A DNA stretch of 41,450 nt, from assembly GCA_025361145.1 (NCBI GenBank), contig JANYAV010000021.1:1-41450 (forward strand). Reading direction: 5' to 3'. The notes under the pieces are model-generated. The model was not told the origin of the DNA, ran no database searches, and saw only the letters and a program-made list of their open reading frames with translations. The DNA is from Dehalococcoidia bacterium (GTDB lineage Bacteria > Chloroflexota > Dehalococcoidia > Dehalococcoidales > UBA3254). The position numbers were made by a program, and so were the translations under genes. Positions 481-27,543 of this stretch are shown in pieces; the first letter of the stretch is position 1, and every line of letters begins with the position of its first letter.

Positions 481-511
481 AGATGCCCGGGAATCTCATT
501 CCCGGGCATCT
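481..511 (-). terminator. Rho-independent terminator of the 3479-532 minus-strand unit
   Basis: A perfect 14-bp stem (481-494 with 498-511) closes on a 3-base loop. Read on the minus strand it follows the stop codon at 532 by about 20 bases and is followed by TGTTTTTAG, a short U-rich tract. This fits intrinsic termination of the amidohydrolase/cupin transcript. The rest of 266-480 holds no convincing gene or RNA. Confidence 0.8.
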
Positions 512-531: not shown

Positions 532-1593
532 TTACTTTGATTTCGATTTCTTGACCTTGATATTGTAGAGTTTAGCCGCAGCTCCACCCATAACCAAATC
601 AAGTTCTTTCTTACTGATATTCAATTCCTTCATGTACTCAATACCCTTGGTGATGCCTCCCATCCTGACAGGATAGCAGCTTGAGTAAAAGACATGATCA
701 GCGCCCAATTCTTTAATGGCCAGCTCCAGCTGACCCTTGGTCCAGCGCAGAGGTGAAGTAATATCATGGTAAATATTATTCTTCATGTAGCCTCTGATCT
801 TATCACCAATGATTTCAACACGATCTACGTTCTCGGTTACTCCCTGCTGGGGAGGAGCAAACATATTAGTATAGGCAAAGAAACCTCCGCCAATATGGGT
901 ATATGTAAAGGTCAGATTGGGGAATTGTTCCAGAAGGTCAGAGAAGATTACTCTTCCTAATGAGGTCATTACATCAACGCATCTACCGAAAGATCTTCTT
1001 AAGTTGGTGTATTCGTAGATATGCTGGTAATCAACCGGCATGGGAGTATGATGCACACGTACGGGGATATTCAATTGGCTGATTTTCTTAAAATGGGGGC
1101 GGAAAAGTTCATTATCATGATAAAGAGTGCCGTAATGAGCGGCCATTTCAACACCGCAGCATCCCAGTTCTTTAACGCATCTTTCCAATTCTTTAAGACA
1201 TTCCTTATCCCCATATGGAGGAACAATGGCCAATGCTACGTAACGATCCGGATGCTTCTTAACAACTTCATGCAACATGTTGTTAACTTTTTTACAGGTT
1301 TCCAGATCGAGCCATTCTTCCCAGATAGGTAAGCTTAAAACAGAGATATCTACACCGGCTTTGTCCATGTATTCCAGGCGGGCATCGGGATCACACATCA
1401 GCTCATCAAAGTTCAAAATGTCATAGCCCTTTGGTTTAGCCAGAACGACCTGTTTCTCTGTTTTGCCGGGGATGTTTACCACCGAAATATTTTCTCCGAA
1501 GATGCGAGGGCACGAACGGAAAAAAGAATTCATCAAAGCCTCGTCCCTGAAGAAATTTTCGGGCATCCACATGTTGTTTAAATCGATAATCAT
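532..1593 (-). CDS. Amidohydrolase-2 family protein with replaced metal ligands
   Basis: The 353-residue protein has the length and layout of the amidohydrolase-2 family (ACMSD, gamma-resorcylate decarboxylase, LigJ-type enzymes). An IID strand opens the barrel, IPVRVHH lies at 176-182, THIGGGFFAYTN at 232-243 and a final YSSCYP motif at 303-308. In active members the first strand carries HxH or ExH and the last motif carries Asp (SDYP type). Here these are N6/M8 and C306, while H181/H182 and H233 remain. The canonical mononuclear metal site is therefore probably absent. It may be a pseudo-enzyme, a binding protein, or use other chemistry. The ATG start has GAGGAG upstream. It is last in the unit after the cupin (45-base gap) and before the terminator at 481-511. 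Confidence 0.85.
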   Translation of the reverse strand: MIIDLNNMWMPENFFRDEALMNSFFRSCPRIFGENISVVNIPGKTEKQVVLAKPKGYDILNFDELMCDPDARLEYMDKAGVDISVLSLPIWEEWLDLETCKKVNNMLHEVVKKHPDRYVALAIVPPYGDKECLKELERCVKELGCCGVEMAAHYGTLYHDNELFRPHFKKISQLNIPVRVHHTPMPVDYQHIYEYTNLRRSFGRCVDVMTSLGRVIFSDLLEQFPNLTFTYTHIGGGFFAYTNMFAPPQQGVTENVDRVEIIGDKIRGYMKNNIYHDITSPLRWTKGQLELAIKELGADHVFYSSCYPVRMGGITKGIEYMKELNISKKELDLVMGGAAAKLYNIKVKKSKSK

Positions 1594-1638
1594 ACTAAAA
1601 CTCCTCTATTTTTATTTTCACACTAATTAATATTAAAT

Positions 1639-2160
1639 TTATCCCTGGATACCTTGAATAGATGGATTAGCCAAACATTGAGGGCAATCTACCGTTTTCG
1701 GTCGCATTTCGCCAGCTTCCAAAGCAAAGATTACCAGTAATAAAGGTTTTTTAACATTCCGGTAGATCAATGGCATATGAGGGATCCCCGGGGGTATCCA
1801 GATCAAGGAAGAGGTGTTGAAACTGATCTTATCGGCATCCTTACCTTCTCCCATCCATAATTCAACATCGGCTCCCAGGTCATTTGGATCGTCCTTATTA
1901 GTGCCTAAGAAGAGAAATATCTCCTCCAAATCATGTTTGTGCGGCGGTTTTTCTACGGTAGCACCCATGGCGGTGTCTTTCCATATCCACAAGTGTTCCA
2001 CCATGTGAGTGACCCCAGCGATAGGCTTGCTATTCTCCATCCACATAAAAGGCGGAGCAGTGCGGCTATTTTCGACTGTGGACCAGGCGGACACAGCTAC
2101 ATTGTGTTTAGAGCGTGTAGGTTCTCTAACGATATACTGTTCGTATTTTGATACTGCCAA
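1639..2160 (-). CDS. Cupin-domain protein
   Basis: The 173-residue protein contains both cupin motifs. Motif 1 is PPHKHDLEEIFLFLG (H-x-H-x3-E pattern) and motif 2 is IPPGIPHMPL, so a single metal-binding cupin barrel is expected with three His and one Glu as ligands. The start is TTG, seven bases after AGGAGG; there is no better ATG. It lies between two amidohydrolase genes in the same orientation. The family includes dioxygenases, isomerases, hydrolases and decarboxylases. In this anaerobic context an oxygenase role is unlikely, and an isomerase, hydrolase or small-molecule binding role is more plausible. The substrate is unknown. Confidence 0.85.
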   Translation of the reverse strand: MAVSKYEQYIVREPTRSKHNVAVSAWSTVENSRTAPPFMWMENSKPIAGVTHMVEHLWIWKDTAMGATVEKPPHKHDLEEIFLFLGTNKDDPNDLGADVELWMGEGKDADKISFNTSSLIWIPPGIPHMPLIYRNVKKPLLLVIFALEAGEMRPKTVDCPQCLANPSIQGIQG

Positions 2161-2231
2161 TATTTGCCTCCTATAAAATTAAATATTAGTTAATTTTTAG
2201 TACTAAAAAACAATGCCAAGATTTAGATGGA

Positions 2232-3479
2232 TTAAGAATTCCTACGATCTATCTTAACCTGACCTTCCATCATCACTATCTTGATCTTTTCCGGATTTCG
2301 CAAGATCTTGATATCAGCCAGAGGATCTCCGTCTACGACGAGAATGTCTGCTAATTTGCCGGGCTCTATAGTGCCTATTTTATCACCCATAAAGCAGGCT
2401 AAACCTCCGTTTTTGGTAGCCGCAACAATAGCCTCCATGGGCGTAAAATCAGCATAATTAACCAGCAACTCGAGCTCAACGGCGGAACCCCCATATTTTT
2501 GAACCAGACTTTCGCCTCCGCTATCAGTACCCGTGGCGACAATACCCCCGGCTTTGCGAATCTTTTTAAAGGCTTTAGATGAAAGTTCGAGCTGCATCTT
2601 GCCGCGTTCAATTTCATTTGCTCTACCGGTTTCAGCGCCAAAATCAGTGGGGGATTTATAGACAGTTAGAGTTGATACAAAAATAATGCCCTTCTTATTG
2701 GCCATTTCCGTCATTTCTTCATCAACACCAACAGCATGGTCAACGGTTTTGACGCCGGCGGTAATTGCCGATTTGGAAACCTTAGCGCAATCACAATGGA
2801 TTGTAACAAATTTATCATTTTGAGCGGCAGTTTGGATAATCGCCTGTAATTCATCCGGATGGAAGTAGGAATTCCGGCGAGTCCAGAGTTTGATAAAATC
2901 AGCTCCGCGATTTAAGACATAGCGAGTGCCTCTGATACATTGATCAACCCCATCGCAAATAAGAGCCTGGCCTCCGGCTTCACCAATAATATCACTGGTA
3001 CGGCCATCAACATATTCCTGGGGCATGAAATTGAACGGAGTACCCAGAGAATTTTGAATCATTAAACCGGAACCGATAATACGAGGCACATTATTTAAAG
3101 TACCCTCAGCAGCTGACTGCTTTATATATAATCCATTCATTCCACCGCAATCTTTTACTGTAGTAAAACCGCAAGACAGAAAGTATTGTGCATCAAAAAC
3201 CGCTTTAATTAACCCAACTTCTCGAGGATGAGTCAGACGATCCATCACTCCATGCTCAAATTTAGATCCAAAAAAATGCGCGTGAGAATCAATCATCCCA
3301 GGCATCACCGTTTTACCGGTTGCATCAATAATTTCTGCCTCAGGGGGAATTGGGATATTCTTACCTACGGCTTTGATTTTGTTGTTTTCAATTATTATGG
3401 TAGCATTTTCAACAACTGCCCCTCCATTTCCATCGATGAGTCTGCCACCTGTGATAGCTTTTATTTTTAAATTAGCCAT
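2232..3479 (-). CDS. Metal-dependent amidohydrolase (imidazolonepropionase/prolidase-like)
   Basis: The 415-residue protein has the complete metal set of a binuclear amidohydrolase: MPGMIDSHAHF gives H66 and H68, ADFIKLW gives K197 (likely carboxylated), TIHCD gives H228, VDHAV gives H248 and GTDSGG gives D319. The C-terminal GTIEPGKLADILV strand is typical of the urease/imidazolonepropionase branch. It probably hydrolyses a cyclic amide, lactone or peptide-like bond in the cytoplasm; no signal peptide is visible. The ATG is preceded by GGAGG. It heads the three-gene unit running to 532, and its neighbour at 532-1593 is a distant relative that has lost these ligands. The substrate cannot be named from sequence. 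Confidence 0.9.
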   Translation of the reverse strand: MANLKIKAITGGRLIDGNGGAVVENATIIIENNKIKAVGKNIPIPPEAEIIDATGKTVMPGMIDSHAHFFGSKFEHGVMDRLTHPREVGLIKAVFDAQYFLSCGFTTVKDCGGMNGLYIKQSAAEGTLNNVPRIIGSGLMIQNSLGTPFNFMPQEYVDGRTSDIIGEAGGQALICDGVDQCIRGTRYVLNRGADFIKLWTRRNSYFHPDELQAIIQTAAQNDKFVTIHCDCAKVSKSAITAGVKTVDHAVGVDEEMTEMANKKGIIFVSTLTVYKSPTDFGAETGRANEIERGKMQLELSSKAFKKIRKAGGIVATGTDSGGESLVQKYGGSAVELELLVNYADFTPMEAIVAATKNGGLACFMGDKIGTIEPGKLADILVVDGDPLADIKILRNPEKIKIVMMEGQVKIDRRNS

Positions 3480-3616
3480 GTATTTCCTCCTATACCTGAT
3501 AAAGATCCAGCAAGATATATTTTATAATCCCTGACACAATCCTATAACCAAGATAACATTAACAATCTTGTACTGTTTTAGCTACTTAGTTACTATTATT
3601 TATTTTGTAGTTATCT

Positions 3617-4273
3617 TTACAACTCTATTTCTTTAAGATCTTTGGCAATTATCAATTTGGGTTCTGTGGATGCTTGGACCTCTACAGGGGTTAGACCTGG
3701 GGCTACCTCTTTCAATAAAAGTCCTTGCGGTGTGACTTCAATAACTGCCATATCAGTAAAGATAGTATGAACTACTTTGGAAGCAGTAATCGGATAAGAG
3801 CAATTTTTCACTATTTTGGGTTTTCCGTCCTTGGTAGTGTGAGACATGGCAATGAACAATTTCTCAACTCCAGTGGCCACATCCATTGCTCCTCCAATCC
3901 TCCCCACTCCTCTCTCAGGCACCATCCAATTAGCAACATCGCCTTGTTCGGAGACCTCGAGAGCTCCCAGTACCCCAATGGCGATATGCCCACCTCTGAG
4001 CATGACAAAGGCTTCAGCTTGATCAACAATGGCAGCACCAGGCAAGAGGGTTACAAACTCCCCTCCGCTATTAACAAGCTGAGAGTCTTCCTCTCCTGGC
4101 TTAGCACGGGGTCCATAACCTAAAAGCCCATTTTCACTTTGGAAAATGACTGTTCTACCCGCAGGAATATAGTTTGAAGTCAAAGTCGGCAATCCAATGC
4201 CCAAGTTGACAAAAGAGTTATCCGGAAATTCTTGAGCTATCCTTTTAGCTATTTGTTCATCGGTTAATCTCAT
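3617..4273 (-). CDS. Class I CoA-transferase, subunit B
   Basis: The 218-residue protein matches the beta subunit of 3-oxoacid/acetoacetate CoA-transferases (ScoB/AtoA type). SENGLLG carries the catalytic Glu (E47), which forms the glutamyl-CoA thioester, and NLGIGLPT sits at 23-30. The ATG overlaps the stop of subunit A by one base (TAATG), so the pair is translationally coupled. It would transfer CoA between an acyl-CoA and a 3-oxo acid in the cytoplasm. With the thiolase just upstream it fits activation and thiolysis of acetoacetate-like products. The exact acceptor (acetoacetate, 3-oxoadipate, glutaconate or a longer diketo acid) cannot be told from sequence. Confidence 0.93.
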   Translation of the reverse strand: MRLTDEQIAKRIAQEFPDNSFVNLGIGLPTLTSNYIPAGRTVIFQSENGLLGYGPRAKPGEEDSQLVNSGGEFVTLLPGAAIVDQAEAFVMLRGGHIAIGVLGALEVSEQGDVANWMVPERGVGRIGGAMDVATGVEKLFIAMSHTTKDGKPKIVKNCSYPITASKVVHTIFTDMAVIEVTPQGLLLKEVAPGLTPVEVQASTEPKLIIAKDLKEIEL

Positions 4274-4956
4274 TAGCTTTCTTTCCTTGGAATCTTAACT
4301 ACTCGATCCACGTAAATTGCTGAGGTTACAATAGCCTCTGGGTCCAATGCTCCGATTTCGACAATCTCATCTACTTCAACTAACACCGTCTTACCGGCAA
4401 TTGCCATAACGGGGTTAAAGTTTCTCTGCGATCTCCAATAAGTTAGATTGCCCATTTTATCAGCTTTATGAGCTCTTATAAAAGAAAAATCAGCCTTTAA
4501 GGGTAATTCCAAAATATAATCCTTATCTCCAATCCTTTTCGCTTCTTTTCCTTCTGCTATAGCTGTTCCCACACCAGTACGAGTATAAAATCCCCCGATT
4601 CCTCCTCCAGCACAGCGCATTCTTTCCATTAAAGTTCCCTGAGGGACTATTTCAAGTTCAACCTCTCCTGCTAGATATTGTGCTTCAAAAGGACTCATCG
4701 GTTTTCGTGACGCAGGTACTGGGGCAGAAGCTATGGCTTTCCGTACTTGTCTGGCTTCAAATAACATGTCCAGATCTACACCACCACATCTATTGGTTAC
4801 CACTGTTAGATTCTTTACGCCTTTATCTCGCAAAGCCCTAATAAGATTAGTTGGCGATCCCGGTTTACCGATAAAACCGCCAAACATTATAGTAGCTCCA
4901 TCGAAAACATCTGCTACCGCTTCTTCGAAACTTTGAACAACTTTATTTATTGACAC
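4273..4956 (-). CDS. Class I CoA-transferase, subunit A
   Basis: The 227-residue protein is the partner of the downstream subunit B. It has the glycine-rich segment MFGGFIGKPGSP near residues 21-32, where acetoacetate CoA-transferases have GGFG..G.P, and the ALRDKGVKNLTVVTN strand that follows. The start is GTG with GGGAGG upstream. About 110 bases with a perfect palindrome (5029-5060) separate it from the thiolase. I infer a heteromeric A2B2 enzyme that activates a keto acid as its CoA ester for the neighbouring thiolase. Divergence in the glycine loop suggests a substrate different from plain acetoacetate, but this is only a hint. Confidence 0.92.
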   Translation of the reverse strand: MSINKVVQSFEEAVADVFDGATIMFGGFIGKPGSPTNLIRALRDKGVKNLTVVTNRCGGVDLDMLFEARQVRKAIASAPVPASRKPMSPFEAQYLAGEVELEIVPQGTLMERMRCAGGGIGGFYTRTGVGTAIAEGKEAKRIGDKDYILELPLKADFSFIRAHKADKMGNLTYWRSQRNFNPVMAIAGKTVLVEVDEIVEIGALDPEAIVTSAIYVDRVVKIPRKES

Positions 4957-5028
4957 ACAAACCTCCCCTGGAATGACACGACCAATACTTTAACCGATCT
5001 ATTTTGTAACTATCTTCAATAAAACACT

Positions 5029-5060
5029 GTCAACAACTCAAAATATTTTGAGTTGTTGAC
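5029..5060 (-). terminator. Perfect 32-bp palindrome between thiolase and CoA-transferase
   Basis: Bases 5029-5044 are the exact reverse complement of 5045-5060. On the minus strand it begins 7 bases past the thiolase stop and is followed by GTGTTTTATTG, so a hairpin terminator or attenuator is the simplest reading. Its lower end also contains TTGACA on the minus strand, so it may instead be an operator overlapping a promoter for the CoA-transferase genes. The -10 partner is weak (TACAAA at 19 bases). Confidence 0.6.
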
Positions 5061-5067
5061 ATCACGA

Positions 5068-6330
5068 TTAATATTTTTCCACAACAGCCGCGATACCTAG
5101 GCCTCCACCTCCGCAGATGGTCTCCAAACCGAATTTGGCTTTGCGTCGTCGCATTTCATGCAGCAAAGTAACCATACGCATGGTACCAGTAGCTGCAATA
5201 GGATGACCCAGAGAAATCCCCGATCCGTTTACATTTAATTTGGCATCATATTCAGCTTCCGCAATCCCCATCAACCTGGCATCAGCCAACATCTGACAAG
5301 CAAATGCTTCCTGAATTTCTATAAGCTCCATATCCTTGATAGTCAAACCTACCTTTCCAAGGGCTTTATTCACAGCGGCAGGAACAGACGGATAGGTTAG
5401 AGTCGGATCAGACCCGGCTACTGCAAAAGATCTGATATAAGCCATAGGCTGAAGATTCAGTTCCTTAGCTTTGGCAGGAGTTGTAATCACTACGGCGGCT
5501 GCACCATCATTCTCGGTCGATGAATTACCAGCAGTACAAATGCCATCCTTGTATACTGTGGCTAATTTAGCCAGTCCCTGGAGTGAAGTATCTCTTCTGG
5601 GTGTCTCATCTGCGTCGAATACTAAAGTCTCTTTGCCTTTCTGCGGCATCTCTACTGGAACAATCTCTTCCTTAAATATACCGGAATCCATGGCTTTAAT
5701 AGCTTTCTGGTGACTGCGTACTGACCATTGATCGGCTTCCTGTCTTGTAATACCTTCCTTTTTCGCTGCAGCTTCCGCCCAGCTCATCATAGAGTTCAAT
5801 TCGCCGAATCTATCAATAGGTTGAGACATTACCCTGGCTCTTTGAATGCGGTCAAAAATAGGCATACCCCACATCGAAAGGCTGCCGTGTCCTCTGGGCA
5901 TAAATCCCCACTTGGGGTCGTTTTGACCACCGATACCCCACCTTATTTGTCCGGGGAGGTAAAACTCGGCGTTGCTCATAGTGTCAATGCCTCCGGCAAC
6001 CACAATATCGGCATTTTCACTCATTATTTTCATGGCAGCGAAGCAGATTGAGTCTAACCCAGAACAGCAACGCCGGTCTAGGGTTACTCCCGGGATTTCA
6101 ACCGGCCATCCAGCTTGCAACAAAGACATTCGAGCGATATTAACATATTCCCCACTTTGGTAAGCTTGACCCATAATCACGTCATCAACACTAGCAGGTT
6201 TTACGCCTGCTCTTTTAACAACTTCATTCAGAACCAAAGCCCCCAAATTATAGGCTGGGATATCTCGTAAAGTTCCCCCAAAACGGCCAATAGGAGTCCG
6301 CACTGCGCCAACAATTACTACTTCCCTCAT
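5068..6330 (-). CDS. Thiolase (acetyl-CoA acyltransferase), catalytically complete
   Basis: The 420-residue protein is a degradative/biosynthetic-type thiolase. VVIVGAVRTPIGRFGG is at the N terminus, the nucleophile C88 is in RRCCSG, H376 is in GHPIAATG, and the second cysteine C406 is in ICGGGGLG. The usual NEAFA motif reads QEAFA, a mild change. It would cleave a 3-oxoacyl-CoA with CoA to acetyl-CoA plus a shortened acyl-CoA. The ATG is preceded by AGGAG. It lies between the molybdoenzyme operon and the CoA-transferase, all on the minus strand, so it is the natural last step after CoA activation. It is about 25 residues longer than the commonest thiolases. Confidence 0.93.
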   Translation of the reverse strand: MREVVIVGAVRTPIGRFGGTLRDIPAYNLGALVLNEVVKRAGVKPASVDDVIMGQAYQSGEYVNIARMSLLQAGWPVEIPGVTLDRRCCSGLDSICFAAMKIMSENADIVVAGGIDTMSNAEFYLPGQIRWGIGGQNDPKWGFMPRGHGSLSMWGMPIFDRIQRARVMSQPIDRFGELNSMMSWAEAAAKKEGITRQEADQWSVRSHQKAIKAMDSGIFKEEIVPVEMPQKGKETLVFDADETPRRDTSLQGLAKLATVYKDGICTAGNSSTENDGAAAVVITTPAKAKELNLQPMAYIRSFAVAGSDPTLTYPSVPAAVNKALGKVGLTIKDMELIEIQEAFACQMLADARLMGIAEAEYDAKLNVNGSGISLGHPIAATGTMRMVTLLHEMRRRKAKFGLETICGGGGLGIAAVVEKY

Positions 6331-6458
6331 AAATATTGCTCCTTATTTTATTCACTGGCTTTTATTCAATTTATCTACTCAAAAAGAATCTAAATTATAA
6401 TTGTTTGACTCTAATATTTTAGAATAGATCTACGACAAAATCAAAAATTTGAACAAGA

Positions 6459-9080: not shown

Positions 9081-9101
9081 TTCGACACCTTCCTTTAAGG
9101 T

Positions 9102-9935
9102 TTAGGCAACTTTATCCAGTTTTATATTCCCTAAATGGTTGTACTCAATATCAAGACGGATATCAGCTATGGTTTTGGAACGATAACCCTTACATTTAAT
9201 CTCGAGGGAATATTTTTCGTCTTGTTTCAAGTAAGTAGCTAAAATGTTCCCAGATTGATTACTTTTAAGAGCTACCTTCTCACCAGTCTTTGAATTGGTG
9301 ATTGCCACATCGGCATCGGCGACATCCATCAGACTATGGGCATCAATTATGTGTCCGGCCAGAGATATTGAGGGCAGGCCCACGTAATAAATTTTGGGTC
9401 CAGTTTTATATTCTGGATTCATCTGTCTGGCGCCTCTTTTTTTGGCCATTTCCTTGACCTTTGACTCTTCATCCAGAAAGAAAACTCCAGATGGGCAGGC
9501 GTCGACACAGGCAGGCAGCTTACCTTCCTTGAGCTTATGCTGGCAAAGGGTACATTTCTGGCAGATATTCTTGTCATCATTAAAATTAATGGCATCATAG
9601 GGGCAAGCTTTCATACAAGCCTTACATCCAGTACATTTTTCCGGATCCAGAATAACCGCTCCCGTGTCGGTTTTATAGGCACAACCAGGAACTGGGCAAA
9701 CCTTGATACAGGGTGCATCCTCACACTGCATACATAACTTGGGAACCGCATAAACCTTAACGTGCGGATATTTACCTTTCTCTATCTCGGAAACACTTAT
9801 CCAGGCCGGTTGCCTATCAGTCTGAGAGTAGCTAAAAGGCGGATATACATTGCCCACGTATTCGTCTTTACAGGCCATCTCGCAAGAATAACAGATGCTG
9901 CAACGGCTGACGTCTATAAGCATCGCGTATTTCAA
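9102..9935 (-). CDS. Transhydroxylase-type beta subunit: four-cluster ferredoxin with C-terminal beta domain
   Basis: The 277-residue protein has four cysteine motifs: C12/15/18/22, C68/71/76/80, C101/104/107/111 and C128/131/143/147. These are enough for four [4Fe-4S] clusters as in DmsB/PsrB-type subunits. After residue 190 comes a beta-rich segment (DVAITNSKTGEKVALKS...) resembling a transthyretin/Cna-B or carboxypeptidase-regulatory fold, the same layout as the 274-residue small subunit of Pelobacter transhydroxylase. The start is TTG with AGGAGGG upstream. It overlaps the stop of the preceding alpha subunit by four bases (TTGA). It sits between two alpha subunits, so it could serve either or both. 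No membrane anchor gene is present, so the complex should be soluble and cytoplasmic. Confidence 0.93.
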   Translation of the reverse strand: MKYAMLIDVSRCSICYSCEMACKDEYVGNVYPPFSYSQTDRQPAWISVSEIEKGKYPHVKVYAVPKLCMQCEDAPCIKVCPVPGCAYKTDTGAVILDPEKCTGCKACMKACPYDAINFNDDKNICQKCTLCQHKLKEGKLPACVDACPSGVFFLDEESKVKEMAKKRGARQMNPEYKTGPKIYYVGLPSISLAGHIIDAHSLMDVADADVAITNSKTGEKVALKSNQSGNILATYLKQDEKYSLEIKCKGYRSKTIADIRLDIEYNHLGNIKLDKVA

Positions 9936-12505
9936 TTCTCTCCCTCCTGCTTTATAACTTCCACCATCATGTGTTCAATCCTATGTAAATGGGAATGACA
10001 GGACATTGGCTTGTTAGTTGTCAGTACATTGGCTGAACCGCCCCTATCAAGACTCCCTGGCTTAGTCGGATCTTCAGGCTCCCAGAACGCGCCGTAATAC
10101 ATTCTGATGGTCCCTGGCATAATCCTTTCGGTCACATAAGCCCCTGCCAGTATCTGCCCTACATCATTAAAGACTCGCAATATGTCACCGTGCTTTATTC
10201 CGCGAGCTTCTGCATCCACTGCACTTATCCAAATAGGTTCATATTGATGACCGCTGTCACCAGGCACTTTGTGCAGATCCCGTATCCAGGTTACATTCTC
10301 CATCATAGAATGAATTCTAAACTTGGGGTGAGAGAAAAAACCCACCAGAGGATATTTTTTAGCCAACGGGCTATTGCGGCCATCCTGAGGCTCACGGTAC
10401 TTGGGTACAGGCCCTATATCAGGGTTATTCTCGCCCCAACGGTCAGCTAGTACCTGGGAATAGAGTTCTATCTTACCTGACGGTGTGGCTAACCCGGTGC
10501 GATCCTTGTAAAACCAGCTCAATGGAGGAGTCGCTTCATATTTTTCCGGCACGGGGAAGAAATGAACACCTTTCTTTTTGAATTCTTCAAAAGAAACAAA
10601 TTCAGGAAGAGAGGAAACCTGGAACAATTTTCTGATCCAATCCTCTTCGGTATTTCCTTCTGATAACTCTTCGTAAATACCCAGCTTTTTTGCTAGGTTA
10701 TAGAATATCATCATATCCGGCATAGACTGTCCCAGAGGTTTGACGCATTGCTCCTGATAGATAGACATTTGGTGATTGCAGTTTCCCAAGTAAGGGATAT
10801 ACAATCCTCCTGTGCACGGCATGCTGATATCATTACGCTCTAAGTCGGTGCAGGCTGGCAGCACAACATCAAAACAGTTCATCAACGGTTCCATGAAAAG
10901 GGTTGTGGCTATCGTGGTTTCCAGCTTAGGAGACATGAAAGCTTCAGCCCTCTTGTTGGTATTAGAGTAGGAAACAAAATGCCCACCACCACACCTGAAT
11001 GAAAGCTTTATTTCAGAATAACCTTTCATCGGGTAGTTGTATTTAAAGGCTGATTCATCTTGCCAGTAGGCAGCGCCGGTAGTGCCACCCGTCCATTTCA
11101 CAGGCGGGTTTAAAATGCCTTCAGCGAATTCCAGGGTGTGAATTTTTTGGGGTATGGGATTAGAATACAGATTTTTGGCTGCTGGATTGACACCCGTGGC
11201 GTAGCCAGGCATACGGATGTTCTTATCAAACGGAGCCGCTCCTACCTGTCCCCAAGAGGTTAGATTTACACCCGGTTTTCCCAACCCTTGGAGAGTTTGC
11301 AAAGCTACCATCATGCGGGTAAATTCATGACCATACCAACCACGGTTGGCAGCTGCTACATGGCAGTTAATGCTGACTGGGCCTGCTGCCCATTCACGAG
11401 CTAAATTATAAATGTCTTCGGCTTTGACGCCGCAAATCTTTTCTGCCCACTCAGGTGTCTTGGGAATGCCGTCATCTTTGCCCAGGATGTAGTTCTTCAA
11501 CGGCTCAAACCCTACTGTATGAGTTTTGATGTATTCCTTATCATAGGTTCCTTCGTTAATCCAGACGTTCATCAGCGATGCTGCCAGAGCGGCGTCGGTC
11601 CCAGGGTATACTGCAACCCATTTATCGCAATGTGTGACTGCGGTATCATGCAATTCAGGTGAAATGCTGACGGTCTTGATGCCAGCTTCATTTACCCAAT
11701 GTCTCCAAACCTCTGACTCATGTCCTATGTACATCCGCGTCGATTTGGTCGCATCCAGGGCCCAGAAGACCACCATGCGAGAATTTTGTAGTGTATCTGC
11801 AAGACTGTCGGTACCCTCTGATGTCCCGTTTGTCCACCAGTAACCATACATGAAGGTAGCACCGGTTACCCATCCTGCCCAACTGCAGGTCCCTGGTACA
11901 TACTCGGTAAAACCTCCCAGAAGATTGAAGAAACGAGGAGCTATGGTATAACAGGTTCCCATACCATGGATGGTGCCCCAAGTTTGATGAAAGGTATCCT
12001 GAAAGCATAGGGCAGAGGGGCCATAATCATCCCTAACTCTTTTTATTTCACGGCTGACCTGTTCAAGAGCTTCGTCCCAGCTCATGCGGACAAATTCGCC
12101 CTTTCCGCGATTATCGTAGGTGCCTTTTCCTCCAGGCTCCCACCCCACTCTTTTCATGGGGTACCTCAAGCGGCTGGGATCATAAACCCATCTCCGGTAG
12201 CTGTGGCCCACCATGTCAGTAAGATACTTTCGGGGTGGCTCAAAGACTTTACCATGGGCTTCGATTTTAAAGTGACGAACCTCTTCAGGGATAGTCAGAT
12301 TCTCAAGGCCTATAACCCGGCCGTTTTTTACACGAACAGAAGCCGCCCCACCCAGTGTGCAAGCCACAAAGGATTTTTCTTTTTTAATCTCTTCTATCTC
12401 ACTATGGGTGATGCTTTTCATCAGGCTTTCACTTGCAGAGAAGGAGCTAAACACACCACCCAGCAAATCGATTAATTTTAGGTTGGTATTCTTTACCGTA
12501 GCCAT
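9932..12505 (-). CDS. Molybdopterin oxidoreductase alpha subunit 2, transhydroxylase-like with altered active site
   Basis: The 857-residue protein is a second member of the transhydroxylase branch: no N-terminal cluster motif, a homologous LGGFT...SWAGW segment, and an MPT-binding C-terminal domain containing VDAEARGIKHGD. At the position of the conserved Asp-Ser-Trp it has C207-S208-W209. The presumed Mo ligand Ser is kept but the catalytic Asp is replaced by Cys. H173 occupies the region of the active-site His. It shares overlaps with the genes on both sides (TAATG upstream, TTGA downstream), so it is translationally coupled to the unknown 189-aa protein and to the beta subunit. It may act on a different substrate from alpha 1 or be a non-catalytic partner. 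Confidence 0.9.
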   Translation of the reverse strand: MATVKNTNLKLIDLLGGVFSSFSASESLMKSITHSEIEEIKKEKSFVACTLGGAASVRVKNGRVIGLENLTIPEEVRHFKIEAHGKVFEPPRKYLTDMVGHSYRRWVYDPSRLRYPMKRVGWEPGGKGTYDNRGKGEFVRMSWDEALEQVSREIKRVRDDYGPSALCFQDTFHQTWGTIHGMGTCYTIAPRFFNLLGGFTEYVPGTCSWAGWVTGATFMYGYWWTNGTSEGTDSLADTLQNSRMVVFWALDATKSTRMYIGHESEVWRHWVNEAGIKTVSISPELHDTAVTHCDKWVAVYPGTDAALAASLMNVWINEGTYDKEYIKTHTVGFEPLKNYILGKDDGIPKTPEWAEKICGVKAEDIYNLAREWAAGPVSINCHVAAANRGWYGHEFTRMMVALQTLQGLGKPGVNLTSWGQVGAAPFDKNIRMPGYATGVNPAAKNLYSNPIPQKIHTLEFAEGILNPPVKWTGGTTGAAYWQDESAFKYNYPMKGYSEIKLSFRCGGGHFVSYSNTNKRAEAFMSPKLETTIATTLFMEPLMNCFDVVLPACTDLERNDISMPCTGGLYIPYLGNCNHQMSIYQEQCVKPLGQSMPDMMIFYNLAKKLGIYEELSEGNTEEDWIRKLFQVSSLPEFVSFEEFKKKGVHFFPVPEKYEATPPLSWFYKDRTGLATPSGKIELYSQVLADRWGENNPDIGPVPKYREPQDGRNSPLAKKYPLVGFFSHPKFRIHSMMENVTWIRDLHKVPGDSGHQYEPIWISAVDAEARGIKHGDILRVFNDVGQILAGAYVTERIMPGTIRMYYGAFWEPEDPTKPGSLDRGGSANVLTTNKPMSCHSHLHRIEHMMVEVIKQEGEN

Positions 12506-13074
12506 TATTTACCCCCAATTAGAGCTGCCAGCTCTTTATAATGTTTTTCGCCGCCAGGGGCCGTGATCTTTAGTTTCTTATCATTTACTAACCAGTTCAA
12601 AACGCGCTGGACTTCTTTAGCTTCTTTGGCACATCCTTCTCCTTTTAAAACCCAGAGAGAGTCATGTACATAGGTAACCTCGTTTTTAATGAGGTCTACT
12701 GTCGCGCCGCGCGGAAAGTCTTTTGTCCTAATATTTATAATGCAATTTTCAAGACTGATAATACTTTTTAGATTCATCCTGGGTAAACGACGGCCAAAGT
12801 CAAAATCCAATTTATAAGCAAAACCGCCGCGAGGAGCTTCGTAGCTCTGCCAAATATAAGATGCGGCCTCAATATCAATCTCCATGACTGCTCTTCCATG
12901 ACTGTCTATCAAAAGGTATTTAAAATCTTTTTTATCCAACTCGTCAAAGAAAACTTTAATGTTGGGAACATGGGAACATAACTCATCAAAGGTTATAAAC
13001 CTTTGAGTTTCAACTTGTAATTTTCCACCCATAGTGCCAGTGCGTGGAGGAACAATAGGAACGACGCCAGCCAT
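12505..13074 (-). CDS. Uncharacterised 189-residue protein of the molybdoenzyme operon
   Basis: I do not recognise this protein. It is soluble by appearance, with no signal peptide, membrane segment or cysteine cluster motif. The middle is beta-rich (KYLLIDSHGRAVMEIDIEAA; FDFGRRLPRMNLKS), and the C-terminal third looks like a small helical/winged domain (EAKEVQRVLNWLVNDKKLKI). It has a strong GGAGGG start, lies 4 bases after the TorD-like gene and overlaps the alpha 2 start by one base. That position suggests a maturation factor, substrate-handling protein or small accessory subunit of the molybdoenzyme. Function is unknown. Confidence 0.85.
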   Translation of the reverse strand: MAGVVPIVPPRTGTMGGKLQVETQRFITFDELCSHVPNIKVFFDELDKKDFKYLLIDSHGRAVMEIDIEAASYIWQSYEAPRGGFAYKLDFDFGRRLPRMNLKSIISLENCIINIRTKDFPRGATVDLIKNEVTYVHDSLWVLKGEGCAKEAKEVQRVLNWLVNDKKLKITAPGGEKHYKELAALIGGK

Positions 13075-13078
13075 GTTA

Positions 13079-13759
13079 TTACCCTCCTATCCCTTTGAGA
13101 ATATCGTCAGCCGAAGACAGGCTTATCTTTAAAAATTCATCGGTCAAGACAGCGATGCCTTTATAAAAGGGAGTGTGGGAATATTGAAGGACATCTTTGA
13201 CCAGTTTGGGTACCCATTTGATTAAATGATTGGCCAGAAAGTTCTTTTGGGCCTCGGCATATTCCTTAGCTTTTTTAATATCACCTTTTTTGAATGCCTG
13301 GTTGGTTTTTTTACACAAGAAAGCCATAAAACTTAGTTCCGTAGCGATATGGTCCTCGGGTTCAGTAAATTCTTGCCCGGCAGTCATTCCAAAACTCCAG
13401 TAAACCTCCAGAACTTCATCCCGGTGATGCATCATCATGGTGCCTTCGCGGTAAGTGGATTCCGAAGGATGAGCCGGCACTTTGTTCAGACTAAGAAACA
13501 ACCTGGCGTAATCAGCAGCCAATTGAGTCTCAACAGTATCCAGCTGCTGTGAAGGAATAGAACTACAAAATTTAATAAATTCTTCAACCAATATTTTTGA
13601 TTTTTTATCGGAGAGCAACTCTGCTACTGCGGCCAGTGGTTTCATCTTTTCTGGCATCTCTGCGAGACACTGCTTATTTACCTCTTTTTCATAAATTCCC
13701 TGCAGAAAAGAATAAATTGTTTCCTGTTTCTGGATTAACTGAGAAAGATTATCAACCAT
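13079..13759 (-). CDS. TorD/DmsD-family molybdoenzyme chaperone
   Basis: The 226-residue, all-helical protein carries the family landmarks: YARLFLS at about 105-111 followed by HPSES, the signature EPEDHIATELSFMAFL near 143-158, and HLIKWVP followed by a PFYKGIA segment near the end. Such chaperones bind apo-molybdoenzymes of the DMSO reductase family and help cofactor insertion in the cytoplasm. Neither alpha subunit here has a Tat signal, so its job is probably cofactor loading, not export proofreading. It is first in the operon ending at 6459. Its ATG has only a distant GGGAG, and a 168-base gap with a strong hairpin precedes it. Confidence 0.9.
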   Translation of the reverse strand: MVDNLSQLIQKQETIYSFLQGIYEKEVNKQCLAEMPEKMKPLAAVAELLSDKKSKILVEEFIKFCSSIPSQQLDTVETQLAADYARLFLSLNKVPAHPSESTYREGTMMMHHRDEVLEVYWSFGMTAGQEFTEPEDHIATELSFMAFLCKKTNQAFKKGDIKKAKEYAEAQKNFLANHLIKWVPKLVKDVLQYSHTPFYKGIAVLTDEFLKISLSSADDILKGIGG

Positions 13760-13855
13760 TATCTCATTTCTCCCGTGTTATTTACCCAATCAAAACCTAT
13801 TTCTTATCACTAACTTTTATTTGCATTCCTTGCCCACAATGGAACATGGTGCTGA

Positions 13856-13895
13856 GAGGGTACATTCTCTTCGATAGTGGAAAGAATGTACCCTC
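13856..13895 (-). promoter_or_regulatory. Strong hairpin in the gap between the metallolyase and the TorD-like gene
   Basis: A perfect 13-bp stem (13856-13868 with 13883-13895) has a 14-base loop. On the minus strand it lies about 30 bases past the stop at 13928, but it is not followed by a U tract, so it may be an mRNA-stabilising or processing element instead of a terminator. On the plus strand it is followed by CTTTATTTATA, but no plus-strand gene needs termination here. Confidence 0.55.
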
Positions 13896-13927
13896 CTTTA
13901 TTTATAAGTTTATCCCGTGGATAAAAA

Positions 13928-15199
13928 CTATTTCCCAGCCTCTGCTTTCTCAACCGCCGCTTTTAAAAGAGCCTCTTTCCCAAGCACTTCGGTCAAAATT
14001 TGTCTGAATTGTATTTTCGATAATGACCATTTGCAAATGTAAGCTTCTTCTTTGACTTTGTCAGCAATCTTTCCCATTTGCTCTTTTGTAGCTGGAATAC
14101 CCATTTTCTCGAGCTCGTGTTCTACGATGCCCTTGCCGCAGCCCACGCCTAAAATGACTTCCATCTCATCCTTACCAATAGTCTGAGGAGCGAAGGGCAT
14201 GTTATACCACGGTTTTCCCATTTTTTCCCATCTAAACTGGTGCCAGGCTATCATTCCTGAGCCTTGGAGGAACACATTTTCTCCGATGACTGCTTTATTG
14301 GGGGATATCGGCAACTTGGTTAGTCTTGAAACCAATTCAGCAGTAGGATAGATTTGAGTAAGGTCAATACCGGTGTCAATATGCATAAGAAGTTCCAGTA
14401 CCATGGCCACTTCTTCTGTGGCGGCATTACCTACCCTTTCACCGATGTTATTGATCGAAGTATGAACTACTTCAGCTCCCCCCGTTATTGCGCCAATCAT
14501 CATTGCTGTAGACATACCGAAATCATTATGCCCATGATGTTCGATTCTGGTGTTAGGAACCCAGCTTTTTACCTTACGTACCATCCAGGCGGCAGTCCAT
14601 GGTAAAACATTGGCAAAGGTATCGCTTAAGGCTATGGAATCGGTACCTCCTTCGTAAACCAGGCTCTTAAATACTCGCTCCATATAATCTAAAGGCATGC
14701 GGTAAGTATCATAAATCTGAGCAGTAAAATAGAGCCCGTTCTTTTTAGCATAGGAGCTAATTCTGGTTAATCGTTTCACTGCTTCATCTGGGGATACACC
14801 GTCATTCTCTTCCAGGGTCACAGGATTACCATTAGCTGACATCAATACTCTATCAGCTCCGGTTTCCAGGGCAATATCGATATCTTTTTCTACCCAGTGG
14901 GCCAGAGGCACGATCTTGGCTTTTATCTCCCCCTTTTTATGCATCTTGACCAGCTCGGTGGTTACTTCCTTTTCGGTTGGTGTCATATAGGCGCCATTTT
15001 CAATACTGTAAACACCCAACTTGTCGAGGGCTTTTGCCACCCTTATTTTTTCCTCAGGTCTCAGACATAAACGGGGGCTCTGCATTACCTCCCGGATAGT
15101 GACGTCATGTATTAAAACTTTTTTGGGTAAGGTGAACTGACTGCGTACTTCTGGAACATCGTTGTATTGTGTTAAAAATAACTCTTCTTTGCTATTCAT
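13928..15199 (-). CDS. DRE-TIM metallolyase family protein (HMG-CoA lyase / isopropylmalate-homocitrate synthase-like)
   Basis: The 423-residue protein has the DRE motif as D32-V-T-I-R36-E37, the metal-binding HxH as H222-G-H224 followed by ND, and INNIGERVGNAATEEVAM, which is typical of the isopropylmalate/homocitrate synthase branch. An extra C-terminal segment of about 100 residues follows the barrel. It either cleaves a 3-hydroxy-3-methylacyl-CoA-like compound or condenses acetyl-CoA with a 2-oxo acid; sequence alone does not decide. The MQSP after the DRE motif differs from the usual EGEQ/DGEQ, which suggests an unusual substrate. The ATG has AAGGAG upstream. It follows BKACE by 29 bases in the same operon, so a role in carbon-carbon bond chemistry of the same pathway is likely. 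Confidence 0.85.
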   Translation of the reverse strand: MNSKEELFLTQYNDVPEVRSQFTLPKKVLIHDVTIREVMQSPRLCLRPEEKIRVAKALDKLGVYSIENGAYMTPTEKEVTTELVKMHKKGEIKAKIVPLAHWVEKDIDIALETGADRVLMSANGNPVTLEENDGVSPDEAVKRLTRISSYAKKNGLYFTAQIYDTYRMPLDYMERVFKSLVYEGGTDSIALSDTFANVLPWTAAWMVRKVKSWVPNTRIEHHGHNDFGMSTAMMIGAITGGAEVVHTSINNIGERVGNAATEEVAMVLELLMHIDTGIDLTQIYPTAELVSRLTKLPISPNKAVIGENVFLQGSGMIAWHQFRWEKMGKPWYNMPFAPQTIGKDEMEVILGVGCGKGIVEHELEKMGIPATKEQMGKIADKVKEEAYICKWSLSKIQFRQILTEVLGKEALLKAAVEKAEAGK

Positions 15200-15228
15200 A
15201 ACTAATCTCCTTTTCTACTTATCTGCGT

Positions 15229-16104
15229 TTATTTACTATTATTTAGCAACGGTATACCCAGTAAAGTCCGGGTTTCATCAGGTGTAGCTAATGTTCTCCC
15301 TAATTCTTCGCCAAGTTTTGCTACCCTCGCAACCAATTGAGCATTACTTTTTGCCAGAATGCCTTTTTGATAATAATAATTATCTTCAAAACCTACTCTG
15401 GCATGCCCTCCCAGTAACATACTCTGTAGTACTGTGGCGGTTTCTAGAGCCCCAACCCCCAGAGCCATGAACATCGAGTCTGACGGTAGCTGCTCTACCA
15501 AATGAAGGAAATTCTTAGGAGAAAAAGGTGTTACATTCTGGGCAGTTCTTTGCATACCCAGAGGGAAATCAAACCAGTAAGGTTTAGCGAGATTAGGAAT
15601 CTTTTCTATTAGATAGGTGACTTGCCCTATTCCCCCTACGCCATATACCTCAAACTCCGGTTTAATTCCTTTTTCAGTTAGAGTTTTAGTAAGTTTTTCA
15701 CAAAAGGAACGAGTCCAAAGAGTTACCTTTTCCTTTCCCTCATCCATAAAAACCATAACCCCAACGTCAACGGTGGCCATCTCCGGCCCAGCTTCAAGTA
15801 CCTTAAAACCATCCTCAACGCTAGAAGAAGGCTCTCGCCCCGGAGAAGTTGAGAAGTTGAGTATGATATCACAACCTTTTTCCCTAATAATACGTTTAAT
15901 TTCCTTAAAGACACGGGGATCGGTAGTAGCCTTGCCATCTTTGCCTCGCGCATGAATGTGAGCGATAGAAGCTCCCTCATTCCAGGAACGATAGACTTCC
16001 TCTGCGATCTCATCAGGCTGCATAGGAATGGCTGGATTAGCTTCCTTGGTTAGAAAGCTCCCGCACGGAGCTACACAGATTATTAATTTATCAGTTGCAA
16101 TCAC
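15229..16104 (-). CDS. BKACE-family beta-keto acid cleavage enzyme (DUF849)
   Basis: The 291-residue protein matches the BKACE family: a TIM barrel with the Zn-binding HIHAR motif (H49, H51), the GGHARVGFEDN motif carrying E240, and LNFSTSPG in between. These enzymes condense a beta-keto acid with acetyl-CoA and release acetoacetate plus a new CoA ester (first described as Kce of lysine fermentation). A family member, triacetate acetoacetate-lyase, has been described in anaerobic phloroglucinol breakdown. That would suit this locus, but the residues that set substrate choice cannot be judged here. The GTG start has GAGG upstream. It lies between the crotonase and the metallolyase in one operon. 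Confidence 0.92.
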   Translation of the reverse strand: MIATDKLIICVAPCGSFLTKEANPAIPMQPDEIAEEVYRSWNEGASIAHIHARGKDGKATTDPRVFKEIKRIIREKGCDIILNFSTSPGREPSSSVEDGFKVLEAGPEMATVDVGVMVFMDEGKEKVTLWTRSFCEKLTKTLTEKGIKPEFEVYGVGGIGQVTYLIEKIPNLAKPYWFDFPLGMQRTAQNVTPFSPKNFLHLVEQLPSDSMFMALGVGALETATVLQSMLLGGHARVGFEDNYYYQKGILAKSNAQLVARVAKLGEELGRTLATPDETRTLLGIPLLNNSK

Positions 16105-16158
16105 GTTGTTTTCCTCTGTTGGTAGCCAAATCCTGATGGATACTGATTAACGTTTAAT

Positions 16159-17010
16159 TTATGCTTTATTTTTGCTGTCTTCCCAGGCTTTCTTTACCAG
16201 ATCGAAATCGTGTTTGCTTTTCTCCAGAGCGAAGCCGTACATTTCGGAGGTAATGTGGAACATGTAATCCTCAGTAAATAATTTCTTCAAAGGTCTAACA
16301 ATAAGCTGATGGGTCATTCTGCGGGTGGCGCGGGGCTGCTTGATGATTTTCTCAGCATATTCCATGGCTTTTGCCATTATCTGATCGTTGGGCACAACTT
16401 CATTAACCAATCCTAATTCCAGAGCACCTTTCGCATCAATGGCTTTAGTCAGATTGTACATGGTACCAGCTGCCCTTTTTGAACCGATCAAACCCTGCAA
16501 AATTAAACCCCCGCTATCTCCAGGGATATGTCCGCCTCTGAAGTGCTCATCATGGAAGACAAAATCAGGAGTACAAATAGTGACATCGCATAGCATACCA
16601 AAATTGAAATGAACGCTACCAGGACCATTGATAGCACCAATAGTTGGAATATCGATACCCCAGAGGAAATTCTCAACTGATTTCAAAGGACGATAAAGGC
16701 CATTAAAACGCAGATCAGGATCAGTAACAGCATCCCATTCCTTGAAAGATTCCCTATCAAAGTTGGATATCCAAGATTTACCTGTGGAGGTCAGAATTAA
16801 TACTTCATTATCAGGATCCAGACCGATCGTAACCCAGGCTTCCAGCAGCATATGATGGGCCTGCGGTGACCAGAAAAAGGGACCATCATTGGTATGCATG
16901 CGGGCCACCAGAATGCCATTCTTTCTCTCGAACTTCAGGACTTCGGCAAATTTCTTTGAATAGTCCTCTAATTTGGGTGTGGCTGAAGTGTAAGAAAAGT
17001 TCATTTCCAT
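16159..17010 (-). CDS. Crotonase-fold beta-diketone hydrolase, 6-oxocamphor hydrolase-like
   Basis: The 283-residue protein is a crotonase but resembles 6-oxocamphor hydrolase more than enoyl-CoA hydratases. The residues that matter in that enzyme (H45, H122, H145, D154) have counterparts at H52 (WSPQAH), H134 (NGPGSVH), H156 (DEHF) and D165 (HIPGD), in the same local contexts. The usual hydratase Glu pair is absent. 6-Oxocamphor hydrolase cleaves a cyclic 1,3-diketone by retro-Claisen hydrolysis to a keto acid. I infer the same type of ring opening here, for example on a dihydrophloroglucinol- or cyclohexane-1,3-dione-like intermediate. It is first in the operon behind the promoter at 17159-17188. 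A second in-frame ATG two codons later is possible; GGAGG lies upstream. Confidence 0.85.
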   Translation of the reverse strand: MEMNFSYTSATPKLEDYSKKFAEVLKFERKNGILVARMHTNDGPFFWSPQAHHMLLEAWVTIGLDPDNEVLILTSTGKSWISNFDRESFKEWDAVTDPDLRFNGLYRPLKSVENFLWGIDIPTIGAINGPGSVHFNFGMLCDVTICTPDFVFHDEHFRGGHIPGDSGGLILQGLIGSKRAAGTMYNLTKAIDAKGALELGLVNEVVPNDQIMAKAMEYAEKIIKQPRATRRMTHQLIVRPLKKLFTEDYMFHITSEMYGFALEKSKHDFDLVKKAWEDSKNKA

Positions 17011-17351
17011 TAGCGCTTATTCCTCCATATTAAAAATATTTGTTTATCTTTCAAATTTACCATGGGTTTAGTTGCAGAAGTGCTTAAATTAACCAAACGT
17101 GTGTTCGTAAAAATTAATGTTAATTGAAGTTTATTAACAGGTGGGAACTTCAAGTAAAATTATATACATTTATTGAACAAGATGTCAAGGCAGATAGCCT
17201 TGATGCAAGAATAGCTTATTCCTCCTTAATTTAAAATTCTACGATATCTTTCAAATATATCTCGATTTTAAATATACCAACAAAATAATTTCAATCACGT
17301 ATTAAGTGTAGCAGGGGAGTATGAGAAGTCATTGCTATCATCGAATTGTTC
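17011..17351 (-). promoter_or_regulatory. Regulatory region between marR-type gene and catabolic operon
   Basis: On the minus strand a promoter with both consensus hexamers is present: TTGACA (17183-17188), an 18-base spacer, and TATAAT (17159-17164). Three inverted repeats surround it: TCAAGGC/GCCTTGA (17185-17203) overlapping the -35 box, TTGAAGTT/AACTTCAA (17124-17153) at the expected transcript start, and ATTTAAAAT/ATTTTAAAT (17229-17273) upstream. The first two are good candidates for the MarR-type operator. The leader to the crotonase start would be about 140 bases. No gene is seen in the rest of the gap. Confidence 0.7.
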
Positions 17352-17885
17352 TTACATTGCGCTATTCTTAACAGGATATATTTCCTTGCTCTTTTTTCCC
17401 GTAAGATCAAACAGATGATCCATTATTTTTTCTAATAATATTTTCAATTCCCGTGATTCTTCTTGAGTTAAAGTACTAGTGGCTTCCTCAAAAATATCAT
17501 GCCGTATAGGAACAATCTTTTCTAATGCTTGGAGACCCATCTCGGTTAGTGTGACCCGTCTTAGTCGGCGGTCTACTGTGGTTCTTGAACTTCTGGTAAG
17601 TCCAATTTTATCGAGAGTGTTTAAAGTCATAGAAATGGCGTTATCGGATCTAAAGACTTTATTTCTTAATTCCGTGGGGGTTATTGTACCGCCGTTGGCC
17701 AGAATAAAACTAAGAACCATAACCTGGTTCCTTTTTAACTGCAACTTTCGGAAACCTAAATCCAGGTACCTATCCATCAAACCGGCGGCCCTGAGTAATT
17801 CAAAAGAGGTATCAATACGGATATTATTACGCTGGTCTTCAAGGGCCTCGGCCAAAGCGTCCAAATTCTCAAGGCGCTTTCTCAT
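17352..17885 (-). CDS. MarR-family transcriptional regulator
   Basis: The 177-residue protein has the MarR winged-helix layout: an N-terminal dimerisation helix, a recognition region (TPTELRNKVFRSDNAISMTL near residues 91-110), and the wing SSRTTVDRRLRRVTLTEMG that ends with the conserved D-R-R-x-x-x-x-x-L-T pattern. Such proteins usually repress nearby catabolic or efflux genes until an aromatic or other phenolic ligand binds. It lies directly upstream of the crotonase operon on the same strand, with operator-like repeats in between. I infer it controls that operon and perhaps itself. The ATG has AAGGAG upstream. Confidence 0.9.
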   Translation of the reverse strand: MRKRLENLDALAEALEDQRNNIRIDTSFELLRAAGLMDRYLDLGFRKLQLKRNQVMVLSFILANGGTITPTELRNKVFRSDNAISMTLNTLDKIGLTRSSRTTVDRRLRRVTLTEMGLQALEKIVPIRHDIFEEATSTLTQEESRELKILLEKIMDHLFDLTGKKSKEIYPVKNSAM

Positions 17886-23723: not shown

Positions 23724-23767
23724 GCGGTTTATTGTTTATTTATTAGGATTTTGTAATTTGAATTTGT

Positions 23768-26638: not shown

Positions 26639-26667
26639 GAAATTTCTCCCCTTCCTGACCTCTCCAT

Positions 26668-26681
26668 TCTAACATTAGAAC
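26668..26681. promoter_or_regulatory. Inverted repeat in the uvrA leader
   Basis: TTCTAA-CA-TTAGAA is a perfect 6-bp inverted repeat, directly followed by the palindrome ACACGTGT (26681-26688). uvrA is a classical SOS gene, so this may be a damage-response operator, but it does not match the usual LexA boxes I know. The rest of the 252-base divergent gap shows no gene. Confidence 0.35.
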
Positions 26682-26890
26682 ACGTGTACCGCCAAATGTA
26701 GTCAGATAAATTTAATCAATAATTAATAGTTATTTATCAGTCACATAAAACCCAAAAAATTCAATTAACAACCAAAACCTAGCTTATAGACTTACCCTTC
26801 TGATAAGATTGAACTCAAGGTTAACACTAATATGAATATACCAATAATTATTTTTAAATCACATAAAGATTTAGGTAGAGAAGAAAAGAA

Positions 26891-27391: not shown

Positions 27392-27543
27392 GCTGACTCT
27401 CTCTTCTACCAAGCCATATATAGTATCCCGCCTGTGCAAAGAAAATCAAGAATATTAGTTGTCTTTTTCTAGGTATTCGTTTTGAAAAGGTTATTATAAC
27501 GTATACCAAAACAAATAGTCGGGATAATAGAGAAAGAAGTAAG

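Follow-up and report, generated by a model that had tools for sequence, protein, structure and literature searches.

Results

A 15-gene run with a candidate ring-opening crotonase

We analysed a 41,450-bp stretch of DNA, here called the window, which is the entire contig C25 (JANYAV010000021.1) of a Dehalococcoidia bacterium whose genome (GCA_025361145.1) comprises 1.70 Mb in 25 contigs and is 96% complete. It holds a run of 15 genes, all on the minus strand and reading from 17885 down to 532, among them a crotonase, a beta-keto acid cleavage enzyme (BKACE), molybdoenzyme subunits, a thiolase and a CoA-transferase. A first-pass annotation, made from the sequence alone, had proposed that these genes form a MarR-controlled pathway for polyhydroxybenzenes or cyclic diketones, in which the crotonase opens the ring. 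When we assigned families by Pfam, NCBIfam and PDB sequence matches, the genes were recovered at the positions it gave and on the one strand, and every family that it had named was confirmed, except that of a cupin, which is recognized by motif only and has no match in Pfam.

The crotonase (16159-17010), a candidate cyclic beta-diketone hydrolase, has as its best PDB matches 6-oxocamphor hydrolase (OCH; 1o8u, 116 bits) and the Anabaena beta-diketone hydrolase (ABDH; 2j5g, 111 bits), the next match scoring 62 bits. Its AlphaFold model has a mean pLDDT of 90, and the 12 best Foldseek matches are all OCH or ABDH (TMt 0.86-0.90). In OCH, we take Trp40 and His122 to be catalytic-site residues. The catalytic set of ABDH is D153, H144, E243 and H43 (PMC3584854). 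Aligned to these positions, the window crotonase keeps W47, H52, H134, H156, D165 and E256. The positions of Glu144 and Glu164 of enoyl-CoA hydratase (ECH) read Asn and His, and with both glutamates replaced we rejected an ECH identity. Sequence and model together support its placement in the CoA-independent 6-oxocamphor/beta-diketone hydrolase group, rather than among the enoyl-CoA hydratases. Because it matches OCH and ABDH in sequence and fold, keeps the catalytic residues and lacks the ECH glutamates, the best inference is that it cleaves a cyclic 1,3-diketone hydrolytically. To this extent, the ring-opening role proposed for it appears likely.

The next gene encodes the BKACE (15229-16104; PF05853, 257 bits). 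Equivalents of the zinc-binding and catalytic residues H46, H48, E230, R226 and D231 are intact, and the position of Glu14 in KCE, the aminohexanoate enzyme of lysine fermentation, is occupied by Phe. The known triacetate lyase CsTAL has Trp at that position (PMC10470551), as does a Flavonifractor BKACE from a cyclase-containing cluster. The KCE model scores the window protein at 246, against a cut-off of 382, and this score and the replacement of Glu14 led us to reject a KCE role in lysine fermentation. The protein has the residues of a triacetate acetoacetate-lyase (non-acidic at Glu14, zinc and catalytic residues kept), a pattern that is insufficient to prove the substrate. Action on a neutral beta-keto or diketo acid, as the first-pass annotation had suggested, is plausible from these residues.

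Further along the run lie a thiolase (5068-6330; Thiolase_N/C; TIGR01930, 397 bits, cut-off 241) and subunits A (4273-4956; TIGR02429, 259 bits, cut-off 128.5) and B (3617-4273; TIGR02428, 277 bits, cut-off 243.6) of a 3-oxoacid CoA-transferase (CtfA and CtfB). These are ordinary members of their families, above the NCBIfam cut-offs, and they support the proposal that the pathway would end in acetyl-CoA. Between the thiolase and CtfA genes there is a palindrome with 15-bp arms (5028-5061), either terminator-like or a regulator site.

The molybdoenzyme subunits

Two transhydroxylase-type alpha subunits share one beta subunit. Among solved structures, AthL of Pelobacter (4v4c) is the nearest to both: alpha 1 (9932-12505) matches 4v4c_A with 456 bits and 37% identity, and alpha 2 (6459-9080), of a second transhydroxylase-type subfamily, with 380 bits and 33% identity. 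The beta subunit (9102-9935; 4v4c_B, 132 bits) is a 4Fe-4S protein with a C-terminal barrel-like domain (Fer4_11 plus CarboxypepD_reg). The architecture is that of AthLS, namely an alpha subunit with a serine molybdenum ligand and His144, and an iron-sulfur beta subunit with a C-terminal domain; both alphas retain the ligand Ser175 and H144. We take Asp174, Tyr404, Tyr152 and Arg153 to be active-site residues of AthL. Alpha 1 retains Y404 and carries D174C, Y152T and R153C; alpha 2 retains D174 and the NPDSWEGW motif, has lost Y404 and carries Y152P and R153P.

In an alpha-subunit tree of 12 rows, from which resorcinol hydroxylase RhL and 3,5-dihydroxybenzoate hydroxylase were left out, neither window alpha belongs to the AthL clade (support 100/99), and alpha 2 pairs at 100/100 with the protein G210_a2 of genome G210, in a clade with 50-52% identity. 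Pyrogallol-phloroglucinol transhydroxylase, the enzyme to which the first-pass annotation had likened them, was therefore rejected for both, given the lost AthL residues and their place outside that clade. The same genome encodes alphas on contigs C24 and C11 that are 50-53% identical to AthL and have H144, Y152, R153, D174, S175, W176 and Y404 intact, as is the AthL active-site set in an alpha on contig C2 of the class-mate G155. If the genome has a pyrogallol transhydroxylase, the C24 or C11 alpha is, from these residues, more likely to be it than either window alpha. Catechol dehydroxylases group with acetylene hydratase, apart from transhydroxylase (PMC7028382); alpha 1 scores 456 bits to AthL versus 87 to acetylene hydratase, and a catechol dehydroxylase identity was rejected for it. 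Transhydroxylase-type genes have been reported in sediment Chloroflexi (PMC3971608, PMC4959651), so that their presence in this phylum is already known and not new. C11 also carries a transhydroxylase-type beta gene (L071, 16459-17385) with no adjoining alpha; an alpha is about 27 kb off.

Upstream of alpha 1 are a TorD-like molybdoenzyme chaperone of the Nitrate_red_del/TorD type (13079-13759; PF02613, 110 bits; TorD model, 102 bits) and an orphan protein of 189 amino acids (12505-13074), not named in the first-pass annotation, whose gene overlaps that of alpha 1 by 1 bp. The orphan has no match in Pfam or NCBIfam and no homolog in the fetched loci, and its predicted model (pLDDT only 33.5) gives no usable fold.

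A second cluster on contig C11

Profile searches of 532-17885 found no PF04199 cyclase, no reductase of the short-chain dehydrogenase/reductase (SDR) family and no 3-hydroxyacid dehydrogenase, in line with the earlier remark that a ring reductase is missing. Outside the window, on C11 (about 22,089-27,563), there is a cluster that the first-pass annotation missed: it contains CtfB, CtfA, a 3-hydroxyacyl-CoA-dehydrogenase-type (3HCDH) protein, a cupin, an SDR, a second BKACE and a PF04199 cyclase, the sole one in the genome by targeted search. The anaerobic phloroglucinol pathway of Clostridium scatologenes is PGR-DPGC-TfD-TAL (PMC10470551), and by gene content the C11 cluster appears to correspond to it. 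The same gene set lies near an AthL-like alpha in G155, and contig C95 of genome G294 brings together SDRs, cyclases, 3HCDH, thiolase and BKACE.

The C11 SDR is a candidate for the ring reductase absent from the window. For this SDR and that of the Clostridial locus L132, the best PDB match is gluconate 5-dehydrogenase (1vl8), and orthology to the solved phloroglucinol reductase is not demonstrable. Known phloroglucinol reductases carry TR(S/N) (PMC10470551), where the C11 protein reads Asp-Ile-Ser. Because C11 holds a separate phloroglucinol-type cluster, the window operon is probably a parallel module, and not the phloroglucinol pathway of this genome.

Control elements and remaining genes

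The run begins with a MarR-type winged-helix regulator (17352-17885), whose family matches are weak (HTH_27, E 8e-5; MarR_2, E 1.5e-4; best NCBIfam match of the Saro_0803 type, 34 bits). Apart from 341 bp between this gene and that of the crotonase, intergenic gaps are below 170 bp throughout; three neighboring pairs overlap and a fourth is separated by 4 bp. A promoter-like TTGACA-N18-TATAAT (17188-17159, minus strand; 12/12 match to a sigma-70-like consensus) precedes the crotonase, a palindrome TCAAGGC-N5-GCCTTGA (7-5-7; 17185-17203) lies over its -35 box as a candidate MarR operator, and a terminator-like hairpin (481-511, minus strand; 14-bp stem with 8 GC pairs, T-rich tail) closes the run, all three being called as consensus matches only. 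The palindrome has a single exact copy in the window, where a search for further copies gave one match only, with 3 mismatches and at chance level. MarR control of the operon is plausible from the promoter and palindrome. The small gaps and overlaps, the promoter with its palindrome, the closing hairpin and two adjacencies (crotonase-BKACE and crotonase-DRE-TIM) that recur in unrelated genomes indicate that the run is more than a chance assembly of genes.

Following the BKACE is a divergent LeuA/NifV-like DRE-TIM enzyme (13928-15199; HMGL-like, 155 bits; best NCBIfam match 259 bits, below the cut-off of 517). In this protein and both its relatives a metal-ligand Asp is replaced by Glu, giving Arg-Glu, not Arg-Asp. 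One relative, a 72% ortholog, adjoins an OCH-type crotonase (63%) in G294, a 'Deltaproteobacteria' metagenome-assembled genome (MAG); the other, at 44%, follows thiolase and 3HCDH genes in G657. This Asp-to-Glu subfamily thus spans three genomes (13928-15199 here; L200, 623-1876; L219, 1751-3037), in each beside an OCH-type crotonase or 3HCDH/thiolase genes.

Three genes end the run: an amidohydrolase (2232-3479; Amidohydro_1, PF01979, 101 bits) with its N-terminal HxH present; the cupin-like protein (1639-2160), in which the metal-binding motif PPHKHDLEEIFLFLG...IPPGIPH was read in the sequence; and an Amidohydro_2 protein of the aromatic decarboxylase type (532-1593; PF04909, 81 bits; 5-carboxyvanillate decarboxylase 4inf, 72 bits). 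The last lacks the N-terminal HxH and has Cys aligned to the catalytic Asp; it has apparently lost its metal site and would be a metal-less member of its family. Beyond the operon end, the start of the contig (1-265) carries a transposase-like fragment and a tRNA-Pro(ggg) (189-265), a flank such as is seen at an integration site. On the other side, at 18219-19418, lies a second FtsA gene with no adjoining FtsZ; a 64% identical FtsA stands beside an FtsZ-like gene on C11 (L072, 15041-17338).

Recurrence in other genomes

We compared 80 crotonase loci from named genomes. A BKACE lies within about 5 kb of the crotonase in 4 of the 80, all from Clostridia: 4 bp away in L152, about 1 kb in L131, adjoining in L120 and 4.2 kb away in L132. 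The flanks of these loci hold either CoA-transferase and thiolase or SDR and 3HCDH genes, and in two of the genomes (G304 and G306) the crotonase-proximal BKACE is the only one at E<=1e-12. At about three BKACE genes per 4 Mb, a rate that we estimated ourselves, chance would give about 0.6 in 80 loci. As L131 is also related to L132, the linkage across genomes is suggestive, not proved. L152, from G306, brings together BKACE, crotonase, thiolase and CtfAB; nothing in its vicinity matches the SDR or 3HCDH of C11, and nothing in the G306 genome matches the cyclase.

A genome of the same order, G292, has orthologs of the crotonase (57%) and the BKACE (66%), and no PF04199 cyclase was found in it. 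Its crotonase ortholog adjoins a xanthine-oxidase-type molybdenum hydroxylase and a branched-chain-type ABC transporter (L074, 18615-20000; L075, 1-9629). In a Rhodobacteraceae MAG (L137), an OCH-type crotonase has an AthL-type alpha/beta pair in its neighborhood, and the Flavonifractor and E. ramulus genomes encode a cyclase as well as an OCH-type crotonase. Our searches of the open-access literature turned up no paper that connects OCH-type crotonases with the anaerobic degradation of phenols, and none that describes the crotonase-BKACE-molybdoenzyme combination.

Discussion

On balance we favor the view that the run is a MarR-controlled catabolic operon that degrades, without oxygen, a ring whose meta-related oxygen functions are either already present or introduced, and that it works beside the C11 cluster. 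Computation gives us the protein families, the catalytic residues, the fold, the order of the genes, two recurring adjacencies and the second cluster; from these we infer all of the reactions, the substrate, the regulation and any use that the operon makes of the C11 reductase and dehydrogenase. The alpha/beta molybdoenzyme or enzymes would shift, add or remove ring hydroxyls. A cyclic 1,3-diketone, either a keto tautomer of the ring or the product of a reductase encoded outside the operon (the C11 SDR, for example), would then be opened by the OCH-type crotonase in a CoA-independent, hydrolytic retro-Claisen cleavage that yields an oxo-acid. With acetyl-CoA, the BKACE would cleave a beta-keto or 3,5-dioxo acid into products of the acetoacetyl-CoA type, which the CoA-transferase and thiolase would convert to acetyl-CoA. 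The separate phloroglucinol-type cluster on C11 would open its ring with the unrelated PF04199 cyclase. Of the pathway first proposed, ring opening by the crotonase is supported as likely, whereas a polyhydroxybenzene substrate is only hypothetical.

Several observations weigh against this view. Since the operon encodes neither an NAD(P)-linked reductase nor a hydroxyacid dehydrogenase, it is incomplete on its own if the substrate needs reduction. The exact gene set occurs in one genome only, and a nearby BKACE is lacking from most of the 80 crotonase loci. The Clostridial crotonases that do have one are only 31-36% identical to the window protein, some without an equivalent of OCH Trp40, and may have a different substrate. 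In G292, the crotonase and BKACE orthologs are on separate contigs, beside a xanthine-oxidase-type molybdenum enzyme and a TRAP transporter. Finally, a search of 400 genomes of the phylum at E<=1e-70 found no DRE-TIM ortholog in the 399 others; this absence suggests horizontal transfer of the DRE-TIM gene.

It is possible, though doubtful, that the operon assists the phloroglucinol pathway encoded on C11, with gallate- or pyrogallol-type phenols passing from the window molybdoenzymes to the C11 SDR and then to the C11 cyclase or the window crotonase, as redundant isozymes. C11 would supply the missing SDR and 3HCDH, acetyl-CoA would be the end product of both modules, each of which has BKACE and CtfAB, and the pairing of OCH-type crotonase with cyclase has its parallel in Flavonifractor and E. 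ramulus. However, the AthL active-site residues that the C24 and C11 alphas keep are missing in the window alphas, the presence of two BKACE/CtfAB sets speaks for separate substrates, and no shared regulator was seen between the modules.

We think it unlikely that the substrate is an alicyclic or terpenoid ring, hydroxylated by the molybdoenzyme and opened by the crotonase at the cyclic diketone stage, as OCH acts on 6-oxocamphor. RhL/PgtL-type enzymes of known function use phenols (PMC10100899), and the company of BKACE, CtfAB and thiolase genes recalls the phloroglucinol cluster already published (PMC10470551), although the nearest characterized crotonases do use alicyclic diketones and most related crotonase loci are without phenol-pathway genes.

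Quite unlikely, in our judgment, is a reductase-free cleavage in which the crotonase would directly hydrolyze a polyhydroxybenzene in its keto form, skipping reductase, cyclase and dehydrogenase. A single step would turn phloroglucinol, as cyclohexane-1,3,5-trione, into 3,5-dioxohexanoate, and molybdoenzyme, crotonase, BKACE, CoA-transferase and thiolase would suffice. The gene content of L152 speaks for this scheme. The absence of an NAD(P) enzyme from the operon makes it attractive, but the C11 genes explain that absence equally well.

Very improbable is an ordinary acyl-CoA hydratase or hydrolase in a beta-oxidation-like or amino-acid (lysine/KCE-type) pathway: the general crotonase fold would allow it, and thiolase, CoA-transferase and BKACE are also found in lysine fermentation, but the crotonase has both ECH glutamates replaced and keeps the OCH catalytic set, and the BKACE has Phe for Glu14 and falls below the KCE cut-off.

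If the operon does act on such a ring beside the C11 cluster, there would be at least two unrelated anaerobic enzymes for the hydrolytic opening of phenol-derived rings, and searches for the cyclase only would miss part of the polyphenol-degrading microbiota. CoA-independent crotonases would gain a place in anaerobic carbon cycling, and a concrete, testable aromatic catabolism could be assigned to a lineage of uncultured Chloroflexota that is probably close to Dehalococcoides.

Comparison with known systems

The window alpha and beta subunits resemble AthLS of Pelobacter acidigallici (4v4c) in architecture, serine molybdenum ligand, His144 and the beta C-terminal domain; unlike AthLS, two alphas accompany one beta and several AthL active-site residues are missing. 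The DRE-TIM enzyme has the HxH and GERxGN motifs and the catalytic Arg of LeuA/NifV-type Claisen-condensation enzymes, but differs in the Glu at the metal-ligand Asp (3/3 members) and in its linkage to crotonase or 3HCDH/thiolase genes. The Amidohydro_2 protein belongs by sequence to the family of LigW and gamma-resorcylate-type decarboxylases, whereas their N-terminal HxH and catalytic Asp are missing from it. The crotonase shares with OCH and ABDH (1o8u, 2j5g) the fold, about 30% identity and the His/Asp/Glu catalytic set; unlike them, it shares an apparently anaerobic operon with a molybdoenzyme, a BKACE and a CoA-transferase. With the phloroglucinol pathway of C. scatologenes, the operon has in common a BKACE that is non-acidic at Glu14, a thiolase, a CoA-transferase, a retro-Claisen logic and a regulator nearby; it differs in having no PF04199 cyclase, SDR reductase or 3-hydroxyacid dehydrogenase, and in the crotonase that takes the cyclase's place.

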